Assembly: GCA_027605045.1 (NCBI GenBank) | Contig: JAQFWX010000007.1 | Coordinates: 682,001-746,000, forward strand | DNA: 64,000 nt | Reading direction: 5' to 3' | DNA from: Phallus indusiatus | Lineage: Eukaryota; Basidiomycota; Agaricomycetes; Phallales; Phallaceae | Part shown: positions 1-42,600 of the stretch, piece after piece | Numbering within the stretch: the stretch's first letter is position 1 | How the letters are laid out: the number at the start of each line of letters is the position of its first letter | The notes under the pieces: generated by a model | Databases searched by the model: none | Seen by the model: only the letters and a program-made list of their open reading frames with translations | Told to the model about the DNA's origin: nothing | Translations under genes and position numbers: made by a program

Positions 1-1159
1 TTACTCATCCCGGTCCATTCTTACACCTAGGTTTGAACTGATATCCAGAATCAATTGTTTCCGTTAAACTAACTCGATGCACTGGCACTCCCGCTCGTAG
101 TACCTGGCGCACTTCATGAATTTTCTCCTTCGTTAGGTATGATTGAGTTGTGTGGGCAATATTACCTTCCATAAGCTTGATATTCTGTGTCGAAATCGTA
201 CTATCTAGAAGCTCGCTGGTAACGACAGAAACAAAAAAAAAACAGTAAAGGATGTAGTCCTCAGAGGAAAAGCCGATTTCTTACGTCTTTTTGTCTCCCT
301 GGGGAAATAATTCCCAATTCGGAAGGAAGTTCATTCTGTTCTCGCAAAGTTATGTAATTCATGCAAGTTAGTTGCTCTTGTTGAAACAGGGACATTTGTC
401 TGATACACGAGGAAGAGTGATCACGACATTCTTATGCTAAATGGGAATCTGGGGCGAACGAGAACGGTTACGCGGTGAATTGAAGAGTGTGGCAGAACGT
501 CTGCATCGTTCAGAGAAATATTTACGAGGTTGTGAACAGCGTCCGAGGGAGAATGTGACGTTCTCTTCTAGCATCTTGGGGTTCGGGAGCCTGAGTGCCT
601 CGCGGAGTCATCACGATACAGTTCTGAACGAGGTGTATTTAACGTTTCAATTGCGGGTGGATGTTATTAAGCGAGCTCTTCGCCCTCCGCTAATCACTTT
701 TCGATTTTCATGCTTTGTCGAATATTGTGCGTCGGACGTTGCTGTCGGAACAGTTGAAGTTGACGTTGAGATGTTGACAGGCTCAGGCTGTTGAGACTGT
801 GACATGCATTACGAAAGGTTGTCAGTTTCAATCCGTCACAGCGACGGCATCACTGTTCCGACGTTTGACAATAAACTTTTGGCATTCACAAGGCATTTAT
901 TGAAATATCTTGGAAATATCGCGTCTCCCCAGTTTTCCTTCTTCAGCCGCAGGCTCATGCTGAACCGTTAACCAGCCTTGACATTTGCTTCAACGTCCGA
1001 CGTCGTTTGTATAGAGAGGTTTGGATCTCCGATTGTGAATTTAATTGTTCAGCTGAGGAATCGCAAATAACGACGCTTCCGAGATATATCAATCTTCAGA
1101 GGACTCTGGCAAAACCAGAATTATGATTTACAGAATAACTTAGGAAGACTGAGAACTCC
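1..1159. other. No recognisable gene
   Basis: An open frame of 117 codons at 441-794 (+) starts with a charged, possibly helical stretch (GERERLRGELKSVAERL) but matches no family I know and has no clear intron signals. The rest of the stretch shows no convincing coding or RNA signal. The left part of the neighbouring oxysterol-binding-protein relic may fade into it. Confidence 0.4.
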
Positions 1160-25199: not shown

Positions 25200-26530
25200 C
25201 TAAAAAAAGGGGATGACGGAAGATGTGGAACACAACAACAACAGGTGACAGGGAAAGGTGGTACTGGAGTGTTGTAATCATCTGCGACATCCCCAAAATC
25301 GCGTGCGGACACGCAATTCAAAGATTGAAGAATGTCAGTAGGATTTAAAAGAAGAGTTTTGGATAGTAAACTCACCTGTAGAACACTCGGATGGCGAGAA
25401 AACGCGCAACACGCACCGGGGGCACTATGTGGAGAGGAGGAGAAGAGTAATCGCGCACGACGTGTCGAAAATCGTGCGCGGAGACGCGATTCAAAGATAG
25501 GAGAATGTCAGTAGGATATAAAAGAAGAGTATTGAATAATAAACTCACCTGTAGGACACCCGGATGGACAGAAAACGCGCAACACGCGTTGGGGGTCATG
25601 TTCTGGTGGTAGGGAAAAGTAATCGCGCACGACGTGTCGAAAATCGTGCGCGGAGACGCGATTCAAAGATTGGAGAATGTCAGTAGGATGTAAAAGAAGA
25701 GTATTGAATAATTAACTCACCTTTAGGACACGCGGATGGCCAGAAAACGCGCAACACGCGTTGGGGGACATGTTCTGGTGGTAAGAAAAAGTAATTGCGC
25801 ACGACATCTCGAAATTCGTGCGCGGAGCGGTATCAAACTGTTTGGGCATTGTTGAGAAGACATAAAAAGAGAGATAAATGTATATAACTTACGTGTAAGG
25901 TAATGTGTTGGTCGGAAAACGCGCAACATGCGTTTAGGGTATGACAGTGAAGGGGGGGTGAGCATAAATGCACACGAGGCCTTTGATATTTTGCACGGAG
26001 CAGATTTCTGTTGCTTTGGCATTGTTAGGAAGACATAAATGAGTAAAAATATGTAAATAACTCACTTTCAAACTAATCCACTGGCCGGGAAATGCGCTAC
26101 ATGTGTTGGGGAAGGGGTGGAAGACTAGGAGGGAGGGGTAAGTGATAAGTATTCGCACACGATGCTTCCAAAATCGTGTGCGAAGCAATATATCAATAAT
26201 TGGACGTTGTTAGTAGGTCATATATTGACAGGAATGCATAGGTCACTCACTGTCAAAACAATGTGTTGGACCGGAAAACGCGATGCACGCGTTGGGATAT
26301 GCAGTGGAGGGGGGGCAGTGTAACCATGCCGCGACATTGGATAAATTAAGCTGAAATGATACCTATACTTGTGCATTATTGAGATAATAAAATAGAGTAG
26401 AAGTGAATATTCTACCTTTCTTAAAAGCCGCGAAATATCCAGAAAACCGACAACATGCGTGGAGCGAATGTGATGGTAGTAGTAATCAGAAGGAAAAGTC
26501 GCGTCGCTTGTCACACTTCAATGAGTTCAT
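25200..26530. repeat. Tandem repeat array, unit about 170-184 bp, seven or more copies
   Basis: A core like 'aaaacgcgcaacacgcgttg' recurs near 25399, 25573, 25744, 25916, 26091, 26275 and 26443, spaced about 174, 171, 172, 175, 184 and 168 bp. Each unit also carries 'actcacct', a stretch like 'gaagagtattgaataataaa', 'gaatgtcagtagga' and a GC-rich 'cgcgcacgacgtgtcgaaa' inverted-repeat segment. The copies at 25573 and 25744 are most alike; similarity falls towards both edges, and a fainter unit may exist near 25230. The array begins about 40 bp beyond the stop of the KDZ transposase. On the minus strand every unit contains a good splice donor (AGGTGAGT or similar) but no matching acceptor is evident. 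Confidence 0.85.
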
Positions 26531-26569: not shown

Positions 26570-28731
26570 TTAGTTATCATTATCTTCATTATCACCATTC
26601 TTTTCCTCTTTTTCTTCTTTGTACAATAACATGACAGAATGAATAAAAAAATCGAAGTTGAAATTTGACATTGCGCGCAATTGAGATTCAAATCCATCCA
26701 ACCACGCATTAAATTGCTCAGCCGTCTCAGTATTAAATGCACTTTTAGCATTTACTCTTCCCCTCTCATCTCGTTCCAAAAGCAATAAATCAGGTTGGGA
26801 ACCATCAAGAGGCTGTGGATTACAGCGTTCGCGGCAGAGGCGATCTGTTGCCTTATGGCCTCGATAGTGGAACCCATCGACAATGAAACGTGTGGTTTGA
26901 AACCAATCACTGTTGGGGTCTTGAGTCACCAGGTGAGACAATAGCTTGCAAGCCTTATCATAGACTAAAAATTGAGGACGAGGCGATCCAGGAGGGAACC
27001 AAGAGTTGCAGAGCTGTAAAACCTGTGACTCTCCTTCCCCATCGTAGCATTTGCCCCACGCAATGGGATAACCACAGGCCCACTGTATTGTTTCAATGCA
27101 GTATATGCGCCTTGCTCGAAAGCGATGAGGAGTATTGTCATTATTACCACCATCAGCGGGCTGAATATCAATTGCTCTCGGTGTTTCGTTTCTTGAGATG
27201 TTCCGACGAACGTTGAGAAAGGAAGAGGAACCGAATCTATTATGGGTAATTGGATGTTTGCAATTCAGTAAGTCGAATTGAAGTACTAACCTGTTTAAAT
27301 ATCGATGGTAAATCTGGACATGTTCGTTTATATCACATGTCATCTTAGTTTGTGTTCCAATTTCCTCAGTGCAATTGTTTATTGCACAGCATCGATTATA
27401 TGGTCTATGCACTGTACAGAAGCGGCCGTCTTGATAATTTTCCAATGGATTTCGGCATTGTGAAATGGCACATATCTAATATTTTTATCAAATCCAAATA
27501 TATAAATATTTCACTGTTTACCTTATGGGATAGTGTTTTGCCATCCATGACGGCCATGCGAACAACAAGCTGTGGTCCATCATTTGTATTAATGTTAAGT
27601 GGCGGAATGTTGGTATCATTAACCTACTGACCATGAAAAATCTGCAATTATAAATTATAAGAAATCACTCACCAGAGAAACCTCAAATCCCAAAGAATGT
27701 TGACGTTCCCTGATCAGGTCCAGATATTCCAGCGTTGCATAGCGTTTCTCGTGTGTGCATTCAGCGCACACATGGTCCCAGGCGCCAGGCAGGATTCCAC
27801 CATTCATTCCAATGTATTTCAATACATTCTGAACTAAATCATCGGGATTGGCATTTGGTGAACAATTAAAAGCAGCTGAATATCCATGAGCCAGAATTAA
27901 GCGTCGTGTGAAATTTTCCACAAATAATTTTTTGACTTGTTTCGCATCGAGTGTAAGTGAGTTTGAGAAAATTGAACGATTCACAAAGTCAGCAAAGCCA
28001 CTCCAAGATGCTTTGAACCGGAAAATTGCAGCTTCCTGTAGTTGAGCAACCTGTTTTCCCCAATATATCAGTTTAAAACTATGTATTTTAATAAATAAAT
28101 ACCTTAATATGAACAAAAATCATTTCTTTTTGGGAAACACAAAGGTACTGTGTGTTATATTCTAATTTCTGCAGCCGGTTACGTGAATTTGATGGGTCTG
28201 GATATGTATAATGATCTACATAGAATCGTGCACGACATTGACGACATTGGGCAGTGATCAGAATTCCTTTCGTCCATTGCAGATCTGCCCCAACAACAGA
28301 GACGATAGCCAGATCCTGATCTCGCGACAAGGGTTTGTCGTCACAAAACAAGCAATTTAGATGAGGAGTGTATAACATCACTGGCAAGCGAGTTGAGAGC
28401 CGTGAAATTATTTCAGGAGTTGGCCAATCAAAGTGGGTGATGAAACTGTGAACATAATGCTTGATTCTACCGATAAAATCTTGATTCTCTGGGAGATCTC
28501 TGTCCCAAGCATTTGCATTGTCCAGATCTTCACCATCAGCTCGGGGGAGTGGTTGATTGGGTGGATCAAATGCAATGTCAACGAGCATGTGTATAGCCCG
28601 GTCCCAGCCTGTGTCACTACGTTGATAAGGCTTTCGTAGCTGGTTGCTTTTAAATCGCAATAAAACTTGGGCCATCAATATGGTGCCTAAAGCATAAAGA
28701 GCACGTTGAAATGAAAGCTCGAGGGGCATAT
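26570..28731 (-). pseudogene. KDZ transposase, 3' portion, separated from its 5' part
   Basis: Exons separated by short introns can be followed: 28731 down to about 28104, intron at about 28052-28103, the next exon to about 27672, a small exon around 27525-27625, and the last exons to the stop at 26570. The protein has a CRQCRARFYVDHYTY cysteine cluster (CxC5-like), a WDHVCAECTHEKRY cluster, then MAVMDGKTLSHK, then a second cysteine-rich region (CAISQCRNPL...CCAINNC...KMTCDINEH, CxC6-like). The RNase-H-like transposase region follows: FLVYDKACKL with a candidate catalytic Asp, FIVDGFHYRGHKATDRLC...CNP, and a late ETAEQFNAWL with a candidate catalytic Glu. The last residues are acidic. The 5' exon lies 15 kb away at 43837-43950 because of the gypsy insertion, so no normal protein can be made here. 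Apart from that break the coding sequence looks intact. Confidence 0.82.
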
Positions 28732-29031
28732 TGTCACGGTACGCTAGCGCCTCGCTCGATTATTCGATCTTTTCGATTTCTTTCGGTTCCATTTCGCACT
28801 TCGATTTCCTTCATTTTCCATATCTTACCGTTTCCACTACTTTTGTCGTTTCTTCGATTTCTCGATTTCTTCGATTTACTCCGATTTCTGTTTCTATCTC
28901 CTCGGATCCCATGGGGATCAGTCGGGCGCCTCGTACTCTGTATTTATATGCGTTTTCCCTAGAGGGGGATACCTAAGCTTGTTCTCTTAGGTTTTCCCTC
29001 CTCTAGGTGTGTGCCCTGAGTCGCCCTAACA
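28732..29031 (+). repeat. 5' LTR of outer gypsy element
   Basis: U3 contains many iterations of a TTCGATTTC-like motif (about 28765-28890). A TATA box 'tatttata' is at 28941-28948. The predicted transcript start is at 28975, where 'aagcttgttct' begins, inside an imperfect hairpin CCTAAG...CTTAGG (28972-28991). The LTR ends TG...CA. It appears identical to the 3' LTR over 300 bp. Confidence 0.95.
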
Positions 29032-29033
29032 GT

Positions 29034-29044
29034 AGAACAAGCTT
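29034..29044 (+). promoter_or_regulatory. Primer-binding site complementary to the element's own 5' RNA end
   Basis: The 11 bases 'agaacaagctt' start 2 nt after the LTR, where a PBS is expected. They are exactly the reverse complement of 28975-28985 ('aagcttgttct') in the LTR, 34 bp downstream of the first base of the TATA box. This is the layout of Tf1/sushi-type self-primed retrotransposons, in which the first 11 nt of the RNA prime minus-strand synthesis. Confidence 0.8.
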
Positions 29045-29175
29045 CTACCTTCGGACCGGTCGTTTCTATTGTCGTTTTCTTTCAGAAACTCTTTTTCAGC
29101 ATTGTCTCAGACGTTCCCGACGCTTTTCGCCCATAAAACGACCCCTCCGTCCTTCGTTCTTCGATTTCTTTCGTC

Positions 29176-29937
29176 ATGGATCTAGAAGAGAGTGACCCTA
29201 CTACTGAAAGTCGCCTCTCTGCGATTGAACAAAGAATAGAAGAGCTCGTAACTCATCTCGACCGACTCTTCACCCCTCAGGCTCCTGCTGCCGATCCCTC
29301 TAACCCGACAAACCCCAATCCCAGAGCCTCGGCTCCAAATCCCCAAAACGAGACGAGATCGTCTCGAAACACTCGCCCTGCTGTACCTCTCGCCTATGAT
29401 GGGGATCGCAAAACGGCCGTACCTTCTGGAACTCTGTCGATCTTTACATGAGCGTATGTGGCGGCGATTTCCCGAATCTCAGTACCAAAATCATTTGGGT
29501 ACTTTCTTACATGAATAGTGGGCGTGCTGGTGCCTTCGCTGAACTTATTCAGGCCCAGTACAATCGAGGGTTGGTTCCTTATGAGACCTGGGAAGACTTC
29601 CGACAAAAGTTTCGCTCTGAATTCTTCCCGGTAACCGAGGCTGAAGATTCGCTGAACCTCCTTCTTTCAGGACGTTATGCTCAAGGAGGTCGAAACGTAG
29701 ATGATTACACTGACGCCTTTCGCATTATCGTGGATCGCGCGGGTTTCACGGTTCATGATGGTCTTGCGTTAACCACCTACTACCGACAGGGCTTAGATCG
29801 AGAAATCGCCAGTAAGGTTGGAACGATGCAGAATCGACCCGATTATAGCGATTACGAAGGCTGGGTTCAAGCCGCTCGTCTTTTTGATCAAGCTCGTCGT
29901 ACCAACGATGCTTTCAATGCCACCCAACGACGAGTTG
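29176..29937 (+). CDS. gag of outer gypsy element, 5' part (interrupted)
   Basis: ATG 29176 (MDLEESDPTTESRLSAIEQR) opens a short coiled region (IEQRIEELVTHLDRLF), a proline-rich linker and the capsid-like domain typical of Ty3/gypsy gag (TWEDFRQKFRSEFFPV, DDYTDAFRIIVDRAG, YYRQGLDREI, GWVQAARLFDQARR). The frame slips at the AAAA run 29410-29413: one more A would keep it open, so this is either a mutation or a miscalled homopolymer. At 29937 the coding sequence is cut by the nested element and resumes, in the same frame, at 39139. The protein would normally assemble the virus-like particle that packages element RNA. Confidence 0.85.
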
Positions 29938-30257
29938 TGTAACGCTTCGTTACTTTTTATAGTGTACCGCGTACGGTACACAAGTTTTATCACGCTGTAG
30001 TCCTCACACCAATATAACAGACCAAGGGTGCTGTATTATGATGGTGTAAAAACAAGATGCGCGTGCTGAATCAGCACGCGCGTAACTACTACTAATGTAC
30101 AGTTATTACATAATGGCTCGCCGCGTCACGGCGAGCCAGAGGCGTTAAGCGCCTCTATTATTAGAAGTACTAATAGTAATTACTGCAGAGGGCGAAGCCC
30201 TCTGCATATGCCCAAGTGGCATATACTCAATCCACCGCATACGGTGGATCCGTTACA
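29938..30257 (-). repeat. 3' LTR of nested element, palindrome-rich
   Basis: Perfect inverted repeats follow each other almost without gaps: GTGTACC/GGTACAC (29962-29981), 11-bp arms GCGCGTGCTGA/TCAGCACGCGC (30059-30081), GGCTCGCCG/CGGCGAGCC (30115-30137), AGAGGCG/CGCCTCT (30138-30156), TGCAGAGGGC/GCCCTCTGCA (30184-30206) and ATCCACCG/CGGTGGAT (30230-30249). It appears identical to the 5' LTR at 38814-39133. Confidence 0.95.
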
Positions 30258-30267
30258 TCCTCCCCTT
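30258..30267 (-). other. Polypurine tract of nested element
   Basis: Read on the minus strand, 'aaggggagga' directly abuts the 3' LTR. This is the expected position for the plus-strand primer of reverse transcription. Confidence 0.75.
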
Positions 30268-30319
30268 GTGACTTGGACTCCAAGTCATGGGATCGCGAAG
30301 AGGAGGCGTCTGACTGTAA

Positions 30320-30934
30320 TCAGTCAGAGGGATTGCTGTAGTCAATCTCCATGCTCTCCGAGGCACTCGGATGCGGCGCGTCAAGGTCCTCAGGGGGCCT
30401 TAACAATTCCTCGTCCGTCATCTGAATTGGGACGGACGGGGAGTAGACCTTGTTAGGCTGGCCTGCCACGATGCTGGCAGGTGAAGCCGACGCATGGACG
30501 GCGGGGGCGGACGACTGAGTCGTACGCGCCTTTTTTGTTGGACGATCCAGTCCACGGCGCACGCGATAGTCATGCGCGATGCGATTGACATCTTCTCCAT
30601 TGGCGTATCGTTGGAGAAGGGGCGCGATCACCTCAGTGACGCGTCTTGTCGTCGCTCCATTGGCATGCATGGAGCGAATCACCTCCTCTATGGTAATGGA
30701 GGAGGGGGATTTGCACTCGAAGGAACGAGTGTAGCCTTCCATAAGCGTGGAAGGCAGGTGGGTGGAGGAATTACCCTTACCACCGAGAACTTCTTCCCAC
30801 ACAGTAAGTGCGGGGTCGAGGAGGCACTCAGCCGCCTTCTCGAGGAACTTGGCACGTACTTCACGAGTACGTGTGACTCGTTTGAGCCATGCGAACACCT
30901 CAACATCTTGAGGGTTTAATGATCCATCCGACAT
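30320..30934 (-). CDS. Accessory ORF 2 of nested element, unknown
   Basis: 204 codons from ATG 30934 (MSDGSLNPQDVEVFAWLKRV) to the stop at 30320. The ATG overlaps the stop of the preceding ORF in the sequence TAATG, suggesting translation by termination-reinitiation. The N-terminal half is helical and charged; the middle has a regular helical stretch (TTRRVTEVIAPLLQRYANGE) and a basic patch (RPTKKARTT), and the end is proline/serine-rich and acidic. No catalytic motif, zinc finger or membrane helix is seen. It lies downstream of the integrase, where envelope or accessory genes sit in other gypsy elements, but nothing suggests an envelope protein. The frame is intact although upstream pol frames are broken. 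Confidence 0.7.
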   Translation of the reverse strand: MSDGSLNPQDVEVFAWLKRVTRTREVRAKFLEKAAECLLDPALTVWEEVLGGKGNSSTHLPSTLMEGYTRSFECKSPSSITIEEVIRSMHANGATTRRVTEVIAPLLQRYANGEDVNRIAHDYRVRRGLDRPTKKARTTQSSAPAVHASASPASIVAGQPNKVYSPSVPIQMTDEELLRPPEDLDAPHPSASESMEIDYSNPSD

Positions 30935-31947
30935 TAGTCGGATGTAAGGAGGACCTGGTTAGGGTCCGCATTCCAAGTATTGATTAAATACTTGATCTCG
31001 GGGTGTATGAGTTCTCCCGAGATAGACACCACCGATGGACGGTTGGCGGCAGCCTCCATAGCTTCAAGCTTGGCGGTCTTTCTCGCCAGGCGACGCTCCT
31101 TCATGGATCTGCGCCAGCGAGTCCATGCGTATGAAATACGCATGTGAACCCCCCTGTCATCGGGGTACGTGAACACCGGGGGGTCGGTCCAAACCCGGGT
31201 TCCAATCTCGACGAACAATGGTTCGTCGAGGCTGCAGGTGTTATACCATGCAGTAGGATTGGGGGTGCCAGGCACCAGAGAGTGATCCCCACTAACAGTG
31301 GGGTCGAAACCCTTGACGAAGAAGGGCCATGGGTCCCGGTTGGAGTCCCATCCTGGCTTGGTCCGTGGATACGGACCAGAGGGTTTCCTTGGAGAAACCG
31401 GGGCAGCATCGCGAGAGCCCGATGCCTTGGTTGCATCAGCGTAGGTACGCTGAGGTTTGCGTTTGGTGGACGACGCGATGGAGGCGTCGTCATCATAGTC
31501 GTTATCATCGACTATGTCTTCCATGTCGTCGTCAGACGACATGTCGTTGAAAATATCAGGCAAAGGGGCTGCCTGGGATGGTTCAGGCGCTTTATCGGCC
31601 TGGTCTCTCGACCGCTTTTTGGAGGTCGATGGGGTAGTCGACGGGCCTGCCGTCGACGCTGAACGTTCAAGTTCAGCAATGCGAGCTTTCAGCTCGCAGA
31701 TACGACGATTCGCATCGTCGAGGTGGTCTGTCAAGGACTTGACGTCCTTTTCAGCTTCTTCTAGACGTTCGTCTAGATGATAGTACTCCCTCCTTATGAA
31801 GGGAAAGGCCTTGTAGACGGCCTGCTTGACCATATCATGGTCAAGGATGATTGCCCCGCTGCCAGCGGGGCCTGCCAGGTGACTGGCAAAGTCGTTGCAC
31901 GCAGTGCAACTATCATTGTTATGATAGACGGATATGCATCCGTCCAT
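30934..31947 (-). CDS. Accessory ORF 1 of nested element, coiled-coil protein
   Basis: 337 codons from ATG 31947 (MDGCISVYHNNDSCTACNDF) to TAA at 30934-30936. An N-terminal segment has a CTACNDF motif. A coiled coil covers about residues 52-96 (HLDERLEEAEKDVKSLTDHL and onward). There is an acidic and basic linker (KKRSRDQADK; DDDMEDIVDDNDYDDD), and then a globular-looking C-terminal half (WPFFVKGFDPT, YNTCSLDEPLFVEIG, HMRISYAWTRWRRSMKERR). I recognise the C-terminal half as a recurrent protein of agaricomycete gypsy elements, but no function is established. The frame is intact and the next ORF is coupled to it. An RNA-binding or assembly role is possible, from the coiled coil and basic segments. 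Confidence 0.72.
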   Translation of the reverse strand: MDGCISVYHNNDSCTACNDFASHLAGPAGSGAIILDHDMVKQAVYKAFPFIRREYYHLDERLEEAEKDVKSLTDHLDDANRRICELKARIAELERSASTAGPSTTPSTSKKRSRDQADKAPEPSQAAPLPDIFNDMSSDDDMEDIVDDNDYDDDASIASSTKRKPQRTYADATKASGSRDAAPVSPRKPSGPYPRTKPGWDSNRDPWPFFVKGFDPTVSGDHSLVPGTPNPTAWYNTCSLDEPLFVEIGTRVWTDPPVFTYPDDRGVHMRISYAWTRWRRSMKERRLARKTAKLEAMEAAANRPSVVSISGELIHPEIKYLINTWNADPNQVLLTSD

Positions 31948-32211
31948 CGCGTCTAAGGTCCATTCGGACCTTTGCAGGGCCAGTTGAGCCTCTGCTTTTT
32001 TTGAACCTACTAACAGGTTGCGGCGTAGGCGACCGCGAGCGTGATCGTTCGCGTTGCTTTCCCTTGCTGTCAGGCATGGGGGGTGTTGAGGGAGAAAAGA
32101 CCGTGAACGGACTTTTGGGTTATATACTTGGGCGGCCTCATGGAGCGCCCAAGTGAAAATTACCTCACCGCGTAGCAGTGAAGTGCCAGTGGATCCCTGT
32201 GGGTGGGATCT

Positions 32212-33618
32212 TCAAGCAGATCCCCGAGTGGGATCTGGGCGCTTGTTGCTGGTCCGCGACTCTCCGTGATTGGATAGTCGTGGCAGCTGCCGAGGCTCGT
32301 TTACGCCTCGTAATTGCAAGTACTCGTCTAGAGCTTGCAAGTCCTTACAGTTACTGTAAGGTTCCCAAGTGGTATCCCCAAGGGTCCACTGGACTAGGAA
32401 CTCGAGATCTTTCTCGCGAGTTCCACTCCAGCGATGAGCTAGGAGTTCCTCGACGTGCCATTCAGCATCGTCTGGCTGTCCAAAATCATACGCCGTGAGT
32501 GTATCGCGGCGTGGAAACCTCTCGTCGTCATTAGCGATGTGAGGTTTAATCAAATCCACGTGAAATACGGGATTTATGCGACGTTGCTTGAGCTCCTCAG
32601 AGAGCTCAAGTTTCACTGTGATATTGTCTTTAGCGGACAATATTTTGTATGGTCCCACATAACGCGGGATCAACTTCTTAACTCTCCCCTTGGGGAGGTT
32701 GAGGTTCCTCGTCGACAGATAGACGAGGTCACCCTCTTTATACTCCGGTGCATCGCGCCGTGAGTTGTTCGCGTAGTGAGCCTGTTTAACGCGACTGGCT
32801 ATGATAGCGTCATGCGCTATCATGAGATTCCACTTTGCCTGTTGAGCAAAGTGTTGAACACCTTTGAATTTGGTGTTCGTCTCAATTTTCCTTCCCAAAC
32901 TGGGAAGATAGCCGTAATTGAGTTCAAACGGCGCGAAACCAGTGGTTTCGCTGGTGCTGCTATTAATAGCAAACTCCACCATTGGGATCCTTTCGGCCCA
33001 ATCTTTTTGATCGTTCTGTATCACGGAACGAAGTATTTGGCCAATCGAGCGATTGGCTCGCTCGGTAGATCCATCCGTTTGCGGATGGAACGCCGTGGAC
33101 ATGAGCAATCGTGTCCCCATTAGGCGTTGCAGTTCCTGCCAGAACTTGGCAGTGAATCGTGCATCCCTGTCACTCACGATTGAGTCAGGGACACCGTGGA
33201 GTCTTACGACTTCACTGAGGTATAACCAGGCTGTGCCCTTGGCGGTCAGCTTGGTGGTGGTTGGCATCAGACGAACCATAGAGGTCAGTCTGTCAATCAC
33301 GACGAATAGGAAGTCGTGGCCGTTTGAAACGGGTAATGGACCGACGAAGTCCATTCCAATCGATTCCCAAGGTCTATTGGGAATCGGGAGTTGTTTTAAC
33401 AGACCACTGGGGTGATTATTCTCCCCTTTATTGGTCTGGCACGTTCCGCAGGATCTGCAGAACGTATCGATGTCTTCAATCATCGATTTCCACCAGTACG
33501 CTTGTCTAACGTACTGAGACGTTTTGTAACGTCCGAAGTGCCCAACAATTTGGTGGGCCTCACTGATTATAATCTCAGTGATCCTCCTCCCCTTGTAAAA
33601 TGCGTTATGGGGACGCAT
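32212..33618 (-). CDS. Integrase with chromodomain-like tail, nested element
   Basis: The frame is open for 468 codons. Zinc-binding HHCC: His22, His27, Cys57, Cys60. The catalytic DDE triad is complete: Asp90 (GMDFVGPLP), Asp150 (IVSDRDARF) and Glu186 (TDGSTERAN). A GPY/F-type motif follows (RYVGPYKILSAKDNITVKL) and then a chromodomain-like region near residues 395-450 (EWHVEELLAHRW, FLVQWTLGDTTWEP). In chromoviruses this tail directs integration to heterochromatin. The 5' end is connected to the RNase H frame by a break at the G-run 33609-33612 (minus-strand CCCC), where one more base would fuse them. The true protein would therefore be part of a longer pol polyprotein. Confidence 0.9.
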   Translation of the reverse strand: MRPHNAFYKGRRITEIIISEAHQIVGHFGRYKTSQYVRQAYWWKSMIEDIDTFCRSCGTCQTNKGENNHPSGLLKQLPIPNRPWESIGMDFVGPLPVSNGHDFLFVVIDRLTSMVRLMPTTTKLTAKGTAWLYLSEVVRLHGVPDSIVSDRDARFTAKFWQELQRLMGTRLLMSTAFHPQTDGSTERANRSIGQILRSVIQNDQKDWAERIPMVEFAINSSTSETTGFAPFELNYGYLPSLGRKIETNTKFKGVQHFAQQAKWNLMIAHDAIIASRVKQAHYANNSRRDAPEYKEGDLVYLSTRNLNLPKGRVKKLIPRYVGPYKILSAKDNITVKLELSEELKQRRINPVFHVDLIKPHIANDDERFPRRDTLTAYDFGQPDDAEWHVEELLAHRWSGTREKDLEFLVQWTLGDTTWEPYSNCKDLQALDEYLQLRGVNEPRQLPRLSNHGESRTSNKRPDPTRGSA

Positions 33619-34226
33619 AATACATCGCGGAGGAACTGATTCTTGGTAAAGATCAGTTGATTTTTAATTCCAAACGCCTTGTGAGCGTTCGGGTTGGCAA
33701 GAACCAGCTTAAATACTGGGTCCTTGTGATAACCTTGCTGTATCAGCGAGGTGAATTCAGCAAAGCCCTCAATTTTGGCTTTAAGAAGCTTGCTGTCTTG
33801 CTCTGCACTTAGAGCAAGTATATCCTCATCGGATTGCGCTTCTGTAATATCAGAAGGTGTAGTATTTGAGGGACCTTCAACTCGAGGTTCCTCTCGTACT
33901 CGTGAACGTGTAATAACGTTCACTCTCACTTCATCCCTTCTTTCGATGGGAAGATGATCCCCTTCGGGATCAAGTCTAACGTCAGCATTGACGTATACCT
34001 CCGGAGGGTGAACCTCATCCGGAGTGTCCTCTTCGTAATAACGAGAGAGGCCATCGGCGACATTGTTAGTGACGCCCTTGACATGAATCGTCTCGTAGTC
34101 AAAACGAGACAGGTATTCATACCACCGTGCTTGACGCGGTGACATGCGAGGCTGGGTCTTGAAGTGGACCATGGCCTCGTTGTCCGTTACTAGGGTGAAT
34201 CTACGCCTAGTAGTTTGTCTTCCCAC
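33567..34226 (-). CDS. RNase H C-terminal part and linker of pol, nested element
   Basis: This frame contains the end of the RNase H domain (RRFTLVTDNEAMVHF, RQARWYEYLSRFDYETIHV, NNVADGLSRYYEEDTPDE) and a linker to the integrase. It is separated from the RT frame by a break at CC 34206-34207 and from the integrase by the G-run at 33609-33612. Both breaks look like a single lost base in a homopolymer. It is a segment of one polyprotein, not an independent gene. Confidence 0.85.
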   Translation of the reverse strand: MGRQTTRRRFTLVTDNEAMVHFKTQPRMSPRQARWYEYLSRFDYETIHVKGVTNNVADGLSRYYEEDTPDEVHPPEVYVNADVRLDPEGDHLPIERRDEVRVNVITRSRVREEPRVEGPSNTTPSDITEAQSDEDILALSAEQDSKLLKAKIEGFAEFTSLIQQGYHKDPVFKLVLANPNAHKAFGIKNQLIFTKNQFLRDVLCVPITHFTRGGGSLRL

Positions 34227-35335
34227 TTGAGGAAGGCTTCAAGTACCGCGATGAGCTCATGCTCATGGGTGCGGTAGTTGTATTGAGCAGGGGTGAACTT
34301 CTTCGAGAGAAACCCTGCTGGCCTACACGTTTGCCATGTAGGCCCTTGCCCATAATAGGCACCGACGCCACATTTAGAGCCGTCGGTTACGACCCAAATT
34401 GGATCTGGGTCGTCCACGTTAATAGGCTTCAAGATAGGAGCCTTTCGCGTGAGTGCTTTGATTGAATCAAAGCACTTGTTCAACAACGGCGTCCATACGA
34501 ACGGTCTGTTGTTGTACGTACACCCTGATAGTGGTGTAGTGTATGCGGCTACCCCTGGTAGGTATGCCGCAACGTATTGTACGAGGCCCAGAAATTTCTG
34601 GACATCGTTATACGTGCGTGGAGTTCTCCACTCACGTATTTTGTCCATCTTCTCGTGATCGGGATGGATGCCATCATCGTCGATGATGTGGCCTAAGCAC
34701 TCCAGTCGCTTAGAGTACAAATCAACTTTACGACTACTTAGGTAAAGTTGTGCTTCTCGCAGACGCGAGAAGGCATTCTCTAGATGCTGCTGATGCAGAT
34801 CTATTGTGTTTGAATAGACGAACACGTCGTCTATGTATGCATCCGTCGAACGACCGATGCAGTCCCTAAATATGTGAGTCATCAGACGTTGAAACGTCGA
34901 TGGGGCATTACAGTCTCCTTGCTGCATGACATGGCTCTTGAAAGTGCCATAGATGGTGGCAAAGGTCGTCTTGTGGACGTCCTCTGGGACTATGCGTACT
35001 TGCTCGTACGCCTCAGTCAGATCAATTTTTGATCTGTATTTGTGTCTCGCCACGTTCTGGCGGATGGTTTCCTGGTCAGGGAAGGGCGTTACGTCCTTCT
35101 CTGTGTTTTCGTTCTGCAGGCGCAGATCGAACACGGTCCGTAGTGCTAGGACTACGGCTCGTTTCTGCAGGCAAAGCATAGGGATTGCCTGTGTAGCTAC
35201 AGTTGGTTCCCACCAGCCTGCAGCTACGTATCGCTGAATCTTTTCAGCGAGTAGCGCTTTGAGCGCATCCGGACACCTGGGAAGGTGGTACCGGATCTTC
35301 TTATTGGGCTCAATAAGAGGAATCTGGTGATTCAC
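34190..35335 (-). CDS. Reverse transcriptase/RNase H part of pol, nested element
   Basis: 381 codons. RT motifs: SKIDLTEAYEQVRI, the polymerase box YIDDVFVYS (YIDD at residues 167-170), LECLGHIIDDDGIHPD and VQKFLGLVQYVAAYLPG. The RNase H start follows (IWVVTDGSKCGVGAYYGQG, AGFLSKKFTPAQYNYRTHEHEL). The usual KKDG-x-LR block is replaced by LQKRAVVLALRTVFDLR; a palindrome (CCGTAGT/ACTACGG) falls exactly there. The upstream join to the protease frame is at the G-run 35346-35349, again with one base missing relative to an open frame. The nonstandard first codon (GTG) shows that this is the middle of a polyprotein. Confidence 0.9.
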   Translation of the reverse strand: MNHQIPLIEPNKKIRYHLPRCPDALKALLAEKIQRYVAAGWWEPTVATQAIPMLCLQKRAVVLALRTVFDLRLQNENTEKDVTPFPDQETIRQNVARHKYRSKIDLTEAYEQVRIVPEDVHKTTFATIYGTFKSHVMQQGDCNAPSTFQRLMTHIFRDCIGRSTDAYIDDVFVYSNTIDLHQQHLENAFSRLREAQLYLSSRKVDLYSKRLECLGHIIDDDGIHPDHEKMDKIREWRTPRTYNDVQKFLGLVQYVAAYLPGVAAYTTPLSGCTYNNRPFVWTPLLNKCFDSIKALTRKAPILKPINVDDPDPIWVVTDGSKCGVGAYYGQGPTWQTCRPAGFLSKKFTPAQYNYRTHEHELIAVLEAFLKWEDKLLGVDSP

Positions 35336-37206
35336 TTCCCGAAATGGGGAAGTCGGGAAGGGACAGGACCGAACAGGTCACTGTACTTGTTCTTCCAGTA
35401 CTCGATGAGTGCTGGGATATTCTCTTCCGTCATCTCAGGGACGGAGGAGCTGGAATGTTGGGTGCTGGCTAGCACCATCGCTCCTGTTTCAGGAGCGTGT
35501 CCAATCACATGGTGATTGGTGTCAATCACCTCGCCGTCGCGGGTGATTGTACCTCTGCTGAAATCCAGGCAGATGTTGTAGCGTCTCAGGAATGGGACGC
35601 CAATGATCACATCATAGTGATCGATGTTGACGATGTCAAAGTACTCTTGGACATCGATACCTCCGAATTGGATTCGGGTGTACGTTCCATACTGGATGGA
35701 AGACTTGCTGCCCTTAACGGCCAGCTGTAGCACGACAGGTTTGTCGAGCTTGAAGGTTCTTGCCCCGGTGGCAAGAGAGAAATGAGGGGACATGATCATC
35801 CCCTGGCATCCACTGTCGACTAGGCAGTGGGCCAATTGGCCATTGACTGGCCAGAAACCCTCAATGGGTCTCGATGCGTTTCTGTCTCGTGTTGGGGCAC
35901 GAGAGCTCACTCTAGCCGTATGGTCATAGAGTGGTTCCTTGCTCGTAGCGAGCGAGGACTCATTGTCATCCAATGGCGATGACTTGTGGACCGCGAAGTG
36001 CAGTCTGCGCTCCTCATACTCGTCACCAATTGTGAGGAGCATGTATACACTGGGACCATTGTCATCATCGTCCCATTGGTATTGGATGCCCTCGTCGTCC
36101 TCGACGGGGTCGTTGGTGGGCTCGTCTTGGGCCACCTCTTCCTCCACAGCTTGTTCAGCTGTGGGGTCTTCCACGTTCTCCTGCGGGGCATCGTTCGATG
36201 TCTCGCCAGAGGTCTCTTCAACCTCTTCGATACGACCCACATTGGCTCGTACCTGTCTCAGTCTGGGGCACGCATTTCTGTAATGTCCCACCTGCCCACA
36301 GTTGAAACACGTGGGAGGGGTAGTGCTAGTGCGATTGTTCGTACTAGTTGGGGCAGTCCTAGCGGGCTGCGAGTTATGATTTCTCGAGCTTGATGAGCTC
36401 GAGGGGCGATTCCCCAATGGGGAATTGCCATTAGTTCGCGTCTCATGAGGACGCGCAGAGGGACCTTGGTTCCTCTGGTTCAAGCGCATATTGTTTGAAT
36501 GCGCTTGTCTGGCCAAGTTGGTGTGGCTGCTGCTGCTGCCACTACCACTACTGCCACTACTACCCGTTGGACGGGTAGTGCTTCCTTGGGAGGCCGTTAT
36601 CGACCTCCGCTTCTTGAACGCCTCCTCTACTTGGATGGCGAGTGCAAGAAGTTCCTTAGCAGACATCTGCTCAGGACTACCGCCTCTGAATGCTACTTCA
36701 GCGGCGAGGCTGTGGTTCAGCCCATCAAGGAACCTCCTCCTGAATGTATAATCATCAGGAGGGTGCGCTAGTCTGTTGGCTAGCGTGAGTAACGCACTCA
36801 TGTATTCGTGTACAGAGTGCGATCCTTGCCGTTCGCGTTCGAACTGGATCGCCACCTCACTTCTCGAGTGGGGTGGGAGGAATCGTTCGTGTAGTCTCCG
36901 TAAAGCGGGGACTAGGGTCCACTCATGCATGGGACGAGTACCTCGTTCCACGTTCTGGGTGAACCACTCTTGTGCCAACCCTTCTAGGCGCATGCCTAGA
37001 AAGGAGAGTTGCTCTGCTTGGCTGACTTCTCCAAGCAGGTGGTTTACGCGTAGCCAGCGTAACAGACCCGACACAAAGTTGTCGAAGTCCTCGGCTCTGG
37101 ACGAGCCGCTATATGTGGGCGGGAGCCCTATCTTCGCTCCTGCTTTCGCAAGGGGCGAGTTGCCTGGCATCATATCCCTGTTTGCAATCAGGGCTTCTTG
37201 AACCAT
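35332..37206 (-). CDS. gag capsid/zinc knuckle and protease, nested element
   Basis: An ATG lies at 37206, but the same frame is open further upstream to about 37425, so the natural N-terminus is probably earlier. The capsid-like region is at residues 30-200 (GLPPTYSGSSRAEDFDNFV, EWFTQNVERGTRPMHEW). A CCHC zinc knuckle CFNCGQVGHYRNAC covers residues 300-313. An acidic linker follows, and then an aspartic protease with the active-site triplet DSG (CLVDSGCQGM, residues 464-466) in place of the commoner DTG; DSG is also found in active pepsin-fold proteases. The frame ends just before the RT frame at a C-run. Confidence 0.88.
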   Translation of the reverse strand: MVQEALIANRDMMPGNSPLAKAGAKIGLPPTYSGSSRAEDFDNFVSGLLRWLRVNHLLGEVSQAEQLSFLGMRLEGLAQEWFTQNVERGTRPMHEWTLVPALRRLHERFLPPHSRSEVAIQFERERQGSHSVHEYMSALLTLANRLAHPPDDYTFRRRFLDGLNHSLAAEVAFRGGSPEQMSAKELLALAIQVEEAFKKRRSITASQGSTTRPTGSSGSSGSGSSSSHTNLARQAHSNNMRLNQRNQGPSARPHETRTNGNSPLGNRPSSSSSSRNHNSQPARTAPTSTNNRTSTTPPTCFNCGQVGHYRNACPRLRQVRANVGRIEEVEETSGETSNDAPQENVEDPTAEQAVEEEVAQDEPTNDPVEDDEGIQYQWDDDDNGPSVYMLLTIGDEYEERRLHFAVHKSSPLDDNESSLATSKEPLYDHTARVSSRAPTRDRNASRPIEGFWPVNGQLAHCLVDSGCQGMIMSPHFSLATGARTFKLDKPVVLQLAVKGSKSSIQYGTYTRIQFGGIDVQEYFDIVNIDHYDVIIGVPFLRRYNICLDFSRGTITRDGEVIDTNHHVIGHAPETGAMVLASTQHSSSSVPEMTEENIPALIEYWKNKYSDLFGPVPSRLPHFGK

Positions 37207-37208
37207 GG

Positions 37209-38728
37209 CTATGACGCCCTCAAGTACTGGGGCGTCGTCGTTGAAAGGGTCAAACCTTTCAACACGTTCCTCATCGAACGGTGTGGCGCGGAGATCCTCG
37301 CCATACTGTGGTCGACGAGCGTATCCATCATATGGATCGATACGTGGTGCTTCTGCTGGGTTAGCAGATGCTTGCCTCTGCCCATTGGGCTCGGCACTTT
37401 GCCTTGGCAGTTGTCTGCCAGGGGTGATGCTCTGTCGTCTGGACGACTTGAGCTTGTGGCTGGGTCTGGCGATGGGATCCTATCGCCAGTGATGGCATTA
37501 TAGCCACCTTCAAGCACACGAGCATGGCGGACCGCGTTCATACGCGCGTCCCTCGCGATGCGGATCCTATCTTGGATGATCCGCATTTGCTGCTCGTTGG
37601 GAGTGTCAGTCTCGAGAGAGCCTGCTACAGCTTCCTCGAGCGCGTTAGTGGCCGTCTCCACAGCCCGTGCATGCGTACGGATTGCTCTGTCGGAGAGTAG
37701 CCTTGCTATCCTCTGGTATTCGAGGGCAGCTTGGGCGACCACTTCAGCATCCTCTCGTGGGGTGCTCCATTTCGCGACTGGTTCACCAGTCGCGTGGCTA
37801 TCTCGGTATCGATATAGTCACCAACCGCGTCAGACTCGTGAGGCGGTTGTCTTGTGAAACGGTGCATTCGTCTCACTGTTTCTCTGCCAGCCTCTATTTC
37901 GGGGCCGGGGTTTCTAGGAGCTGTATATGCTGTAGCTCCTTGAGTAGGAGGTCTATCAGGACGCGTACTCGGTCCTGGGGTAACGTTCTGGGAACGTTGT
38001 CTGGTGCCTGTTGGTGCAGGCTCAGGGGATTGGGAATTACCAGCTGTCGCTGGTGACGGACTGGCATATGTCGGTCCCGTCGGTGTAGCAAACCTAGCTT
38101 GTGGGGCTGGGTTTGTGAATTGATAGGCAAGGCGACTCGTCGGCCCTGCTGGTCTAGGACGAGTAGATCCCGTACCTGGTGCAGGCGGGTCTACCGCTCT
38201 GCTTTTTCCTTTGTCAGAGCGTGCTCGTGCAGGCTCTGCTTCAGGAGACAAGTCTGTTGTCCTGACTTGGTCCCTGTCAAAGCCCGTGGTAACAGGCTCT
38301 GGCTCGGGGTTTTCAACTCCTGCGTTGACATTCTCGATTAATCGAGCTAGTCTCTGCAGTTCTGACGGGGACATATTCCCGTTCCTCACGCCATCGAGTA
38401 ACGATGCGTGAACAGCGTTCATCGTCTCGTCCCTTCGGATGGACCTGTCGCTCCTGACGCTAAGTCTGGAGCGACCAGATGCTACGGACTTTACGTCCTC
38501 ATCTTCTTCATCAGCGAGTTGGGGCTGATGTTCCATCGTCTGCGACGCAGGACGAGTGGGATTTTGTGTTGATGCATCCACTCTCTCCCATGTGGATGAC
38601 TCTCCTTCGAGGGTTCCTTCCCTAGACGGGTCGGGATTTTCGGTTTGCACTGGCCCGGGTGGGTCAGGCTGATTGGAATCAGGTGTACCACGATCTGGTG
38701 CACTCTGACTCCTGGTAGTAGGAGCCAT
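37209..38728 (-). CDS. N-terminal gag-like region of nested element, two frames
   Basis: ATG 38728 (MAPTTRSQSAPDRGTPDSNQ) opens a long proline-, serine- and arginine-rich, probably disordered segment, continued in another frame (EVVAQAALEYQRIARLLSD, NALEEAVAGSL) by a helical region. Breaks lie at the G-runs 37759-37762 and 37421-37424 (plus strand). One additional base in each would fuse this whole region with the capsid/protease frame into one gag-pol precursor of more than 1000 residues before RT. It begins about 85 nt inside the 5' LTR. Confidence 0.75.
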
Positions 38729-38813
38729 TGAATCCTCCTGTAATAGGAAGGGTTAATTTCGCTTGCTTAATACAGCGGCGGGTTGTTTTTAACGCCTTTG
38801 GTGTTAAAAAAGA

Positions 38814-39133
38814 TGTAACGCTTCGTTACTTTTTATAGTGTACCGCGTACGGTACACAAGTTTTATCACGCTGTAGTCCTCACACCAATATAACAGACCA
38901 AGGGTGCTGTATTATGATGGTGTAAAAACAAGATGCGCGTGCTGAATCAGCACGCGCGTAACTACTACTAATGTACAGTTATTACATAATGGCTCGCCGC
39001 GTCACGGCGAGCCAGAGGCGTTAAGCGCCTCTATTATTAGAAGTACTAATAGTAATTACTGCAGAGGGCGAAGCCCTCTGCATATGCCCAAGTGGCATAT
39101 ACTCAATCCACCGCATACGGTGGATCCGTTACA
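38814..39133 (-). repeat. 5' LTR of nested element
   Basis: It appears identical over 320 bp to 29938-30257, including all palindromes. The internal DNA next to it (38770-38813) contains a palindrome-like 'taacgccttt ggtgtta' but no tRNA 3'-end complement that I recognise, so priming of this element is unexplained. Confidence 0.93.
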
Positions 39134-39138
39134 AGTTG

Positions 39139-39620
39139 TTCCCGGTAATTCGAGTTCAACCCCTCTTACGTCGATTCCGATATCCCGAACTCGACCCAGC
39201 CCTTTCCCGGTCTATCAACGTACAGCTGGACCCCCTATCTACTCCCCACCTCCTTTTCCCCCGCCTCGCGCGTCGATTCCTACCACCATCTCTCCCCCTG
39301 TACGACCATCGGTTTCTACTCCAGTTAACGTCGTACCTCCAATCCGAAATGATGCCATGGAGGTTGACGCTGCTCGTCGCCGCATACAGACTGAGACTGC
39401 CCGGTGCTTCCGATGTGGGCAGTTAGGCCATCTCGTTAAGGACTGCCCACGCGCGTTCGATGTTCGATTCATGCAGGCCGATGAAATCGACGAAATTCTC
39501 GAACAACGCTTCACTCAACAAGATGTGCTGGAAACGCAGAATCGTGCTGAGATCGCTGTCGAAGAAAATGAGATCGCGATCACTTCGACCAGAGAGGATT
39601 TTCAGAATGGCAGCGAGTAA
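39139..39620 (+). CDS. gag of outer gypsy element, 3' part with zinc knuckle
   Basis: It continues the frame of 29448-29937 directly after the target duplication AGTTG. A proline-rich linker leads to the CCHC zinc knuckle CFRCGQLGHLVKDC (about 39408-39449), which binds element RNA, and to the end of gag at TAA 39618-39620. The last 50 nt overlap the upstream extension of the pol frame, which is open from about 39573. Confidence 0.88.
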
Positions 39621-39661
39621 GGGATGCGCCCTCACTGCCGACATCAAATAGATTCGATGTA

Positions 39662-42600
39662 TTGTACATAGACGACAAGTGCAATGAGACTTCTGATTCG
39701 AATTCTATTGATTCTGATGCATCTATTCCTCCCTCAAATCCTCCGATCCCTGCTCCTCGTCGCCTTTCGATTGGAAAACGCAAGCGGATTCCACACGAAT
39801 ACCGTCTGAACGCCACTGCCGGTACTCAAAAACTCGAAATCGATGTAGAACTCCAGAGCACCGACACTGGCGATCTTATTCATTCAAAAGCGATGCTTGA
39901 CACCGGTGCCAGTGGGATGTTCCTTGACCAAGACTTTGTCGAGAAAAATCGGCTCCCGAAGATTCGCTTACCGAAACCGATTCCTGTTTTCAACGTTGAT
40001 GGTACTCCCAATCAAGCAGGAAGCATCACGCACGTGGTGGACTTGGTGATGCGATATCAGACGCATTCCGAACGTGTCATGTTTGCCGTCACTGCCCTCG
40101 GCAAGTACCCAGTGCTGCTTGGATTACCCTGGTTCAAGGCTCATAACCCGGTGATTGACTACTCAACTGGTGAGGTTGAGCTGACCCGGTGTAATCCCGA
40201 ATGTCGATCTTGTAGACCGCCTCCTGTCGAAAAGAAAGGCCCAAAACGTTTCCTACGTTCAGTTCGAGCAATCCCTCCTGTCACCCTTGACGAAACCGAA
40301 TCCACAGATCCAGATATGCCAGATCTCGTGAATGTGGAGGATGAGTTTCACCCAGAAGAGGGAGATCGACTGTTCGCGGTTTCTCTTAATTCAGAACCCC
40401 TGGACAGTTGCCGCATCAGAGCAACTGAAACCATCTCACAGCGATTGGCTCAGGCGCATGCGAATAACACAAGGGGTACACTCAAATCTGGATTTCGAGA
40501 AATCGTCCCCGAAATGTTCCACGATTTCGAAGACGTTTTCGCGAAAGAGTCTTTCGATTCATTGCCACCTTCGAAGAAGTGGGATCATGCGATAGAGCTC
40601 CTACCTGATTCGGATCCCAAGTTTTGCAAGGTGTACCCCCTTTCGCCTAATGAACAGAAGGAGCTCGATGCGTTTCTGGAAGAGAATCTTCGTTCTGGTC
40701 GAATCCGCCCCTCGAAATCGCCCATGGCTTCCCCGGTTTTCTTTATCAAGAAGAAAGACGGCTCTCTACGACTTATTCAAGACTATCGGGCTCTCAACGC
40801 GATGACCATCAAAAATCGATACCCGTTACCCCTAATTCCCGAACTTGTCAACAAATTAAGGGGTGCGAAGTACTTCACGAAACTCGATGTTAGATGGGGA
40901 TACAACAATGTTCGCATCAAAGAGGGCGACGAGTGGAAAGCAGCATTTCGCACGAATCGAGGACTGTTCGAACCCTTGGTCATGTTCTTTGGTTTGACTA
41001 ACAGTCCAGCGACCTTCCAGACGATGATGAACGAGATTTTCGAAGACATGATCACGGAGGGGGTTGTGGCTGTTTATATCGACGATATCCTGATCTACAC
41101 GAGAACGAAAGAAGAACACGATCGCATCACACGTCGTGTCTTAGAACGGCTAAGGGAGCACAAACTCTATCTCAAAGCCGAGAAGTGTGAATTCTGTCGT
41201 ACTAAGATCGAGTATTTAGGTCTGGTCATCTCCGAGAACACTGTCGAAATGGATCCCGCGAAGGTGTCGGGTGTCAGAGATTGGCCAGTCCCGAAAAGTG
41301 TCACCGAGGTGCAGTCGTTTTTGGGTTTCGCAAACTTCTATCGTCGATTCATCAAGGACTTCTCACTGATCGCTGTCCCCTTATTCGGTCTCACTAAGAA
41401 AGAAGCCCCGTTCATCTGGTCCGACATTTGTCAACAAGCTTTCGATTCTCTGAAATCGGCAATGACCTCTGCCCCGGTTCTTGCGATTCCTGATCCATCG
41501 AAGCCCTATCGGGTAGAAGCTGACAGTTCTGACTTCGCGACAGGTGCCGTCTTGTCTCAACCTTCTCTCGAGGACAACAAATGGCATCCAGTGGCCTTCT
41601 TCTCGAAGGCTTTGAGCCCGGTGGAGCGAAATTACGAAATCCACGATAAAGAGATGTTAGCTATCATTCGAGCATTAGAAGAGTGGCGACATTTCTTGGA
41701 AGGTGCGACTCATCTGATTGACATTCGCACGGATCACAAAAACCTAGAGTACTTCATGACGGCTCGTAATCTAAATCGCAGGCAAGCTCGTTGGTCGGTT
41801 TATCTCGCACGTTTCGATTTCACCCTGCGGCATATACCTGGTAAATCGATGGGTAAGCCTGACGGTCTCTCGCGTCGCGCTGATCATGGTTCGGGAAAGT
41901 TCGACAATCAAGGTATCACTCTAATCCGACCCGAAATGTTTGCGATCAATGCCATGCAAACATTCCGCCTTAGAGGGGAGGAGGACGAGTTCCTAGGCCA
42001 GATACGGAAAGCGAACAGAGAAGGCAAACGAGAAGACAGCGTTTCAAAAGCCATCGAATCCCTTAAGGCGATAGGTGGGAGATCGGTTCATACCAGTGAA
42101 TGGGCTGAAGATCAAGACGTCATCTACTATCGAGGGAAGATTTATGTTCCTGAAGTGGACGATCTACGACGGGAAATCCTCCAACGGCACCACGACACCA
42201 AACTCGCTGGTCACCCAGGTCGATTTAAAACGTTAGAACTGGTATCACGAACCTTTTGGTGGCCGGGGATCTCTCGATATGTACAGCGGTATGTAGAGGC
42301 TTGCGACACTTGTATGCGTACGAAACCTTCTCGGCATGCTCCGTATGGTGAATTGCAACCTACCGAAACTCCGAATCGACCTTGGCAATTCATTTCGGTC
42401 GATTTCATTGTCGAACTCCCGGAATCGAATGGTTATGATGCAATTCTCTCGGTAGTAGATTCACTGTCGAAGCGGGTTCACTTCGTCCCAACATTTACTA
42501 CTGTTGACGCTTCTGGCCTTGCATCTCTCTACCTCCAACACGTCTGGAAGCTGCATGGGTTACCCGAGAAGATCATATCAGATCGTGGGCCTCAGTTCTC

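Follow-up and report, generated by a model that had tools for sequence, protein, structure and literature searches.

Why would a retrotransposon carry short perfect palindromes from end to end, in its genes as well as in its long terminal repeats (LTRs)? The question is raised by a 64,000-nucleotide stretch of the Phallus indusiatus genome (assembly GCA_027605045.1, contig JAQFWX010000007.1, positions 682,001 to 746,000), hereafter the window, in which a Ty3/gypsy (Metaviridae) LTR retrotransposon lies on the minus strand at 29938-39133, nested in another Ty3-type element, here called the outer element. An earlier note on this DNA had described the palindromes and offered three meanings for them. 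We consider it probable, with real room for doubt, that the whole element, reading frames and LTRs included, is held by selection as a chain of short, stable Watson-Crick hairpins. The folded molecule would be the genomic or messenger RNA, folding locally into hairpins end to end, and the selected trait would be folding itself and not any single hairpin, by analogy with what has been proposed for the genome-scale ordered RNA structure of some RNA viruses.

Inverted repeats in the nested element

Under the rule of the earlier note (perfect inverted repeats with arms of at least 7 bp and loops of at most 9 nt), the nested element holds 96 inverted repeats in 9196 bp, that is 10.44/kb or one per 96 bp. 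The pattern had been said to be missing from the outer element and the host genes, and the counts bear this out: 2 in the 4381 bp of the outer element at 39139-43519 (0.46/kb), 2 in the 1215 bp of the outer part at 28723-29937 (1.65/kb), 24 in host DNA at 1-28722 (0.84/kb) and 10 at 43843-64000 (0.50/kb). All nine palindromes quoted in the note were found where it had placed them, three of them with arms 1 bp longer than given (at 32343, at 36409 and at 30114-30138, the last quoted as 30115-30137); the longest perfect hairpin, at 34452-34476, has 12-bp arms and a loop of 1 nt. The proposed spacing of one palindrome per 20-50 bp is right locally, in the LTR, or when arms of at least 6 bp are admitted (166 stems in the 8.6-kb internal part), and is too dense elsewhere. 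As had also been claimed, the arms all differ, the two LTR copies aside, and a single mobile palindrome is thereby ruled out.

The excess was compared with two kinds of shuffled sequence. With loops of up to 12 nt, 115 hairpins were observed in the nested element against 5.1 ± 1.8 in dinucleotide shuffles; the outer element had 4 against 3.1, and the two host parts 34 against 23.2 (sd 3.9) and 12 against 16.2. Codon shuffles, which preserve the proteins, were applied to coding segments only, with arms of at least 7 bp and loops of 3-12 nt. Summed over five coding segments of the nested element, 77 hairpins stood against 4.8 expected, so the excess remains in the very comparison that had been named beforehand as able to refute it. 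By segment, the figures were 19 versus 1.2 for gag-protease (35332-37479), 12 versus 0.8 for reverse transcriptase (RT; 34193-35332), 20 versus 1.0 for integrase (IN; 32212-33663), 21 versus 1.5 for the open reading frame (ORF) after pol, ORF2 (30934-32211), and 5 versus 0.3 for the N-terminal part of gag (37706-38752), while the outer pol had 2 versus 2.1. Hairpin density (arms of at least 7 bp, loops of at most 12 nt) was 21.9/kb in the LTR, 16.4 in the region after pol, 14.4 in integrase, 12.4 in RT/RNase H, 9.0 in gag-protease and 6.1 in the N-terminal part of gag.

Genomic copies and folding energy

The genome (67.2 Mb in 206 contigs) was searched with the RT frame and with the LTR. The RT-frame search gave 108 matches (105 of 510 candidates scored), which fall mainly in two groups, one of about 89-100% identity (family A, that of the window) and one of about 78-83% (family B). 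From the LTR search, 40 matches were scored of 156 candidates, and 30 LTR loci were read. The 40 pol loci that were read represent 32 distinct family-A copies, the window's included, and family B was read from the complete element L071 and from the partial elements L072 and L073, both 98-99% identical to L071. Seven distant Ty3-type elements from contigs of metagenome-assembled genomes (MAGs), with 34-39% identity, served as controls.

Folding excess was determined against dinucleotide shuffles for non-overlapping 350-base fragments, with 12 shuffles each. The sense strand of the nested element showed a mean excess of 42.4%, with z < -2 in 26/26 fragments, and the antisense strand one of 31.9%. 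In family B, the values were 16.8% for the sense strand (z < -2 in 22/26 fragments) and 13.5% for the antisense strand. The outer element gave -0.1% (0/13 fragments with z < -2), host DNA 0.8% (2/34), and three of the seven distant elements 3.6-4.6%. Measured beyond codon shuffles, as percentages derived from per-kb energy values, the sense folding energy amounted to 36-49% in five family-A coding segments and 12-18% in five family-B segments, compared with +5% and -4% in two segments of the outer pol.

Stem conservation between families A and B

Families A and B share about 70% identity in the aligned pol region, and family B is itself rich in hairpins (37 versus 6.5 ± 1.9 in shuffles). In that region, 15/87 A stems of at least 6 bp have a B stem of at least 6 bp at the homologous place; 300 frame-keeping shifts, used as the homology control, gave a mean of 0.41 and a maximum of 4. 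Pairs of A stems in which both sides have changed are Watson-Crick again in 23/50 cases, compared with 23.6% in slid controls (p = 0.0004), and the same holds when viewed from B (16/34, p = 0.0024). With the minimum arm length set at 7 bp, the corresponding counts were 16/36 (p = 0.004) and, from B, 6/14 (p = 0.08).

Four hairpins illustrate the shared class. The 7-bp hairpin at 33494-33516, in the integrase gene, has the same 9-base loop in B, with five pairs kept and two changed on both sides and still paired. In the 8-bp hairpin at 35018-35036, in the RT gene, five pairs are kept, two are changed on both sides and still paired, and one has become G-U. All seven pairs are kept in the 7-bp hairpin at 34188-34212, at the RT/RNase H junction, and the 8-bp hairpin at 32621-32643, in the integrase gene, keeps seven pairs and has one G-U.

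Variation within family A

Variation was scored between element positions 2300 and 6400 in sense, only at those sites for which 20 or more of the 32 copies had sequence. Private variants, found in one copy only, were as common in arms (61/753) as outside (247/3065; p = 0.94); most of them would have arisen after insertion. Variants shared by at least four copies stood at 18/753 in arms, a lower rate than outside (125/3065; p = 0.03) or in loops (20/282; p = 0.0007). When shared and rare variants are pooled, third codon positions gave 21/233 in arms versus 150/880 outside (p = 0.002). Among shared or rare variants, transitions made up 38/38 in arms and 192/232 outside (p = 0.002). Wherever both sides of a pair differed from the window, the change was compensating (15 cells at 7 sites), and at 2/7 of these sites a one-sided intermediate was found in other copies. 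The seven most divergent A copies (3.3-4.6%) have 27 to 53 hairpins, the window 31 to 51 over the same stretch, and the lowest share among all A copies is 39/48. Judged from sequence, the copies within this genome favor selection on the hairpins.

The earlier note had also suggested that one palindrome altered the KKDG block of RT. The 7-bp hairpin over this block (35138-35157) occurs in 19/32 family-A copies. However, the block is altered in 8/8 of the other A copies printed and, differently and without the hairpin, in the one family-B element read, so the alteration belongs to the lineage and the suggestion is not supported. Over window positions 35090-35190, family-A copies read, for example, KRAVVLALRTV, and the family-B element reads KKALSGLRTV.

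Stem length and composition

Stem ends were analyzed in the internal part for loops of 3-12 nt, as the share of stems ending at a given length among those that reach it. In shuffled sequence, this share is about 75%. A stems end at 5, 6 and 7 bp in 0.42, 0.37 and 0.40 of cases and at 8 and 9 bp in 0.73 and 0.86, whereas B stems end at 5 bp in 0.51 and at 6 and 7 bp in 0.70 and 0.81. Stems therefore appear to be favored to a length of about 8 bp in A and 6 bp in B, with further extension being roughly what chance would give. Longer stems have lower G+C (B, rho -0.31, p = 0.003; A, rho -0.14, p = 0.09), which would be expected if stability were the decisive property. On the sense strand, loops and the bases flanking stems are A-rich and G-poor, and A-rich, G-poor unpaired bases are typical of folded RNAs. 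Regular spacing of hairpins was looked for and is absent (sd/mean of the gaps, 1.25 in A and 1.16 in B). A codon-register preference that would spare amino acids is at most weak (11:22:17 for A arms of at least 8 bp).

Alternative explanations

Several results weigh against selection on a folded RNA. The majority of stems are not common to A and B, which implies stem turnover. Relative to codon shuffles, the sense strand leads the antisense strand in 5/5 A segments and only 2/5 B segments, and stems are present in all three codon registers. The difference between arms and outside at third codon positions falls to p = 0.09 when shared variants are taken alone, and at first and second positions neither shared variants (3/440 in arms versus 29/1769 outside, p = 0.18) nor rare ones (8/440 versus 30/1769, p = 0.84) are clearly depleted; moreover, relatedness among the family-A copies means that these counts do not represent independent events. 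G-U pairs, which selection on an RNA fold should favor, are not preferred: singly interrupted stems on the sense strand contain 6 G-U (null 2.0) and 23 A-C (null 3.2) in A, and 5 G-U (null 1.8) and 7 A-C (null 2.9) in B. In arms, 26 of the shared and rare changes are of A-C type and 12 of G-U type, compared with 103:89 outside (p = 0.11), and the lean of interruptions toward A-C over G-U is marginal (p = 0.056). The absence of a G-U preference, the mixed strand signal in B, the use of all codon registers and the 3' gradient of hairpins described below leave room for selection at the DNA level or for copying between arms.

That chance, base composition or a by-product of codon use explains the hairpins can be dismissed almost entirely. 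Two of the seven distant elements do slightly exceed their own shuffles (L074, 9 versus 4.7 ± 2.1; L078, 9 versus 3.1 ± 1.3), but all seven reach only 0-1.5/kb. The excess of the nested element persists over both dinucleotide and codon-preserving shuffles, with nothing comparable in the outer element and host. Counted without shuffle control, another Ty3 family of the genome shows 4 hairpins within 2.4 kb, and 50.4 kb of sequence flanking LTR copies shows 1.79/kb, compared with 12.5/kb in the element. Shuffles, distant elements and flanking counts together refute chance or composition as the full explanation. Arm-to-arm copying is a more serious competitor, although we regard it as unlikely. 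In such quasipalindrome correction, the nascent strand would fold back during reverse transcription, copy its own arm and return, so that imperfect repeats become perfect and stay so without selection. This would suit stems made almost exclusively of Watson-Crick pairs and seldom interrupted, the two-sided changes seen among similar copies, and, for arms of at least 8 bp, an unevenness of differences between arms of 1.85 versus 1.49 ± 0.23 in controls (p = 0.06); template switching is likewise discussed for coding palindromes of nematomorph mitochondria in the passages available from PMC6649704. However, an origin by template switch should leave one arm matching B while the other differs, and in stems with a minimum arm of 7 bp both arms carry A-B differences much as equally shaped random stretches do, with one arm intact and the other bearing at least three changes in 4% of stems versus 5% of controls, a comparison in which the 30% divergence may hide single copying steps. 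Copying also fits poorly with amino-acid identity to B that is no lower in arm codons than outside (RT, 0.84 versus 0.83; IN, 0.82 versus 0.72), with stem growth that halts at a family-specific length, with the one-sided intermediates at two of the seven compensated sites, and with arms that are less variable for shared variants and not for private ones.

Hairpins might instead be selected in single-stranded or cruciform DNA, either minus-strand cDNA or DNA that has been extruded, where they would give protection or serve the mechanics of reverse transcription or integration; we judge this rather improbable. The indifference to G-U on the sense strand and the strong folding of the antisense strand as well would agree with it. 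Hairpin density also climbs mildly from 5' to 3' on the sense strand of A (mean relative position 0.581, expected 0.5 ± 0.029, arms of at least 7 bp). In retroviruses, minus-strand DNA remains single-stranded for longer toward the 3' end of the RNA, and the rise runs in that direction. Yet B shows the gradient less clearly (0.589, expected 0.5 ± 0.050), a low T content in the gag part may underlie it, the folding excess over dinucleotide shuffles is larger on the sense strand, and the A-rich, G-poor loops and stem neighbors of that strand resemble folded RNAs. Very improbable, in our view, is an antisense transcript as the folded and selected molecule. Sense A-C interruptions are antisense G-U pairs, A-C is the commonest interruption in A, and the excess over codon shuffles is larger on the antisense strand in 3/5 B segments; against this, B interruptions have no clear asymmetry (7 A-C, 5 G-U), and the antisense excess over dinucleotide shuffles is the smaller one in both families. 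Among the meanings offered in the earlier note, selection for a folded genome is therefore the best supported, by compensation, by the scarcity of shared variants in arms, by stem length and by the 26/26 fragments. A palindrome-making error of RT is less likely, given even differences between arms, kept amino-acid identity and ordinary private variants, and it is the nearly pure Watson-Crick stems that keep this option alive.

Possible role and relation to known systems

If the transcript is indeed selected to fold, folding might protect the RNA against decay or against targeting by host small RNAs, the most tentative step of our proposal; compaction for packaging is an equally possible use. 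Stems of at most 12 bp would be too short to be Dicer substrates. The genome has Piwi-type (20 stretches) and RdRP-type (33 stretches) matches, counted exon by exon, and on that ground a shield against small-RNA targeting would be plausible and the anti-silencing device proposed in the earlier note possible.

Why some RNA genomes fold along their whole length has been studied mostly in RNA viruses. In the passages available from PMC7642675, whole-genome folding excess is 7.5-10.7% for hepatitis C virus, 12.5% for human pegivirus and about 15% for SARS-CoV-2, with 23.4% as the highest value for vertebrate RNA viruses and single regions above 50%. The mean of 42% in the nested element, a retrotransposon, exceeds the 7.5-15% of these viruses and the highest figure of 23.4%, a comparison that is approximate because fragment step and shuffle number differ from those of that paper. 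The likeness to the viral structures of PMC7642675 lies in an excess over order-shuffled controls that is genome-wide and includes coding sequence, in many consecutive stem-loops whose positions are poorly kept between relatives (here 15/87 with B), and in variability that differs between paired and unpaired sites (here p = 0.03 and 0.002). Unlike those viruses, as far as these passages describe them, the nested element has almost purely Watson-Crick stems and a family-specific target length.

Two other systems share part of the pattern. According to the passages available from PMC6649704, mitochondrial genes of nematomorphs also hold perfect inverted repeats inside protein-coding sequence; these reach 284 bp in an organelle, with template switching discussed, whereas the nested element is mobile and has 7-12-bp arms, a target length and signs resembling selection. 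Yeast Ty3 belongs to the same superfamily and has a folded genomic RNA for which short palindromes are considered in dimerization (PMC11381356): six are discussed in its 5' region, and deleting one stops dimerization in vitro. Unlike in the nested element, a genome-wide palindrome load is not described in the passages available from that paper. Among open-licence papers, screened by title and the start of the abstract, we found none on retrotransposons with such a hairpin load.

Integrase relatives within Ty3/gypsy numbered 1641 proteins at E ≤ 0.001, with identity of up to 65% among the 120 listed, and the species-named ones among these 120 are proteins that we take to be basidiomycete. These other basidiomycete elements, compared as proteins, have the same integrase type. 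No third family between A and B was present among the matches listed in two protein searches, and two pattern sets found no relatives in viral contigs.

We would argue, with doubt and confidence about evenly balanced, that this lineage has turned its entire genome into perfect short hairpins of lineage-specific stem length, with a mean excess above every whole-genome figure in the literature passages available. The results suggest that heavy folding of a retrotransposon genome can evolve while its proteins are kept. An LTR retrotransposon here shows a stronger effect than the whole-genome figures of structured viruses, with a weaker effect in its sister family. Since a single genome contains dozens of related copies, mutation and selection can be told apart more readily, and the cause of genome-scale folding can be tested by evolution instead of engineering. 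If the RNA interpretation is true, whole-genome RNA folding becomes linked to transposon evolution in a fungus equipped with RNAi-type genes; if arm copying is true, the element would have a reverse transcriptase that writes palindromes.

Organization of the nested element

The LTRs of the nested element are 320 bp long, 100% identical to each other and end in TGTAAC...GTTACA. In element sense, the 3' LTR lies at 29938-30257 and the 5' LTR at 38814-39133, both on the minus strand and each with the same 7 hairpins with arms of at least 7 bp. A target-site duplication, AGTTG, abuts them at 29933-29937 and 39134-39138. Pfam matches on the minus strand follow the order gag, protease, RT, RNase H and integrase. 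An N-terminal gag reading frame (37706-38752) without Pfam match is followed by gag with a zinc knuckle and protease (35332-37479), by RT and the start of RNase H (34190-35377), by a frame with the rest of RNase H (33567-34238; 22.3 bits, cut-off 24.8), and by integrase (32212-33663) with H2C2, rve and a Tf2-1-like SH3 domain. H2C2 scored above its cut-off and rve below (29.2 of 32.6 bits); the chromodomain-like end of integrase, the feature by which a place in the chromovirus branch would be recognized, matched PF00385 at E = 2.2e-5 with 24.7 bits, under the cut-off of 25.1.

After pol, on the same strand, lie ORF2, a 425-aa frame (30934-32211) with weak coiled-coil matches only, and a second part of this region, a 212-aa frame (30320-30958) without Pfam match. 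A protein-database search with ORF2 gave no relative at E ≤ 0.001, and ORF2 shares 32% identity over 290 columns with the ORF at the same position in family B. A conserved accessory region after pol, in the position of env, is thus seen at 30320-32211 in the window and at 1053-2502 in L071. An Rfam 15 scan of 29938-39133 for known structured RNA families returned 0 matches at E ≤ 0.1. The window copy is probably young, judged from its identical LTRs. Within its internal part (30258-38813), gag-pol is split over several reading frames despite these LTRs; elsewhere in the family, frames stay open for up to 2020 aa.

Other observations

The contigs L074-L080, which carry the distant Ty3-type elements, are filed as bacterial MAGs, and these elements are probably eukaryotic contamination. 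In the 50.4 kb of genome around LTR copies, the loci L006 and L008 supply 32/90 palindromes. Both are solo-LTR flanks with dense palindromes: L006 (269-1084) has a recurring GGGTACCC-like motif, and L008 (200-1486) has a recurring CCGGAC-like motif. Both appear to consist of palindromic motifs in repeated copies, whereas the arms of the nested element differ from one another. A 14-bp-armed palindrome in L072 (4348-4383) has the same GGGTAC motif. Elsewhere in the window, positions 25269-25957 hold a tandem array of about four 172-bp units.

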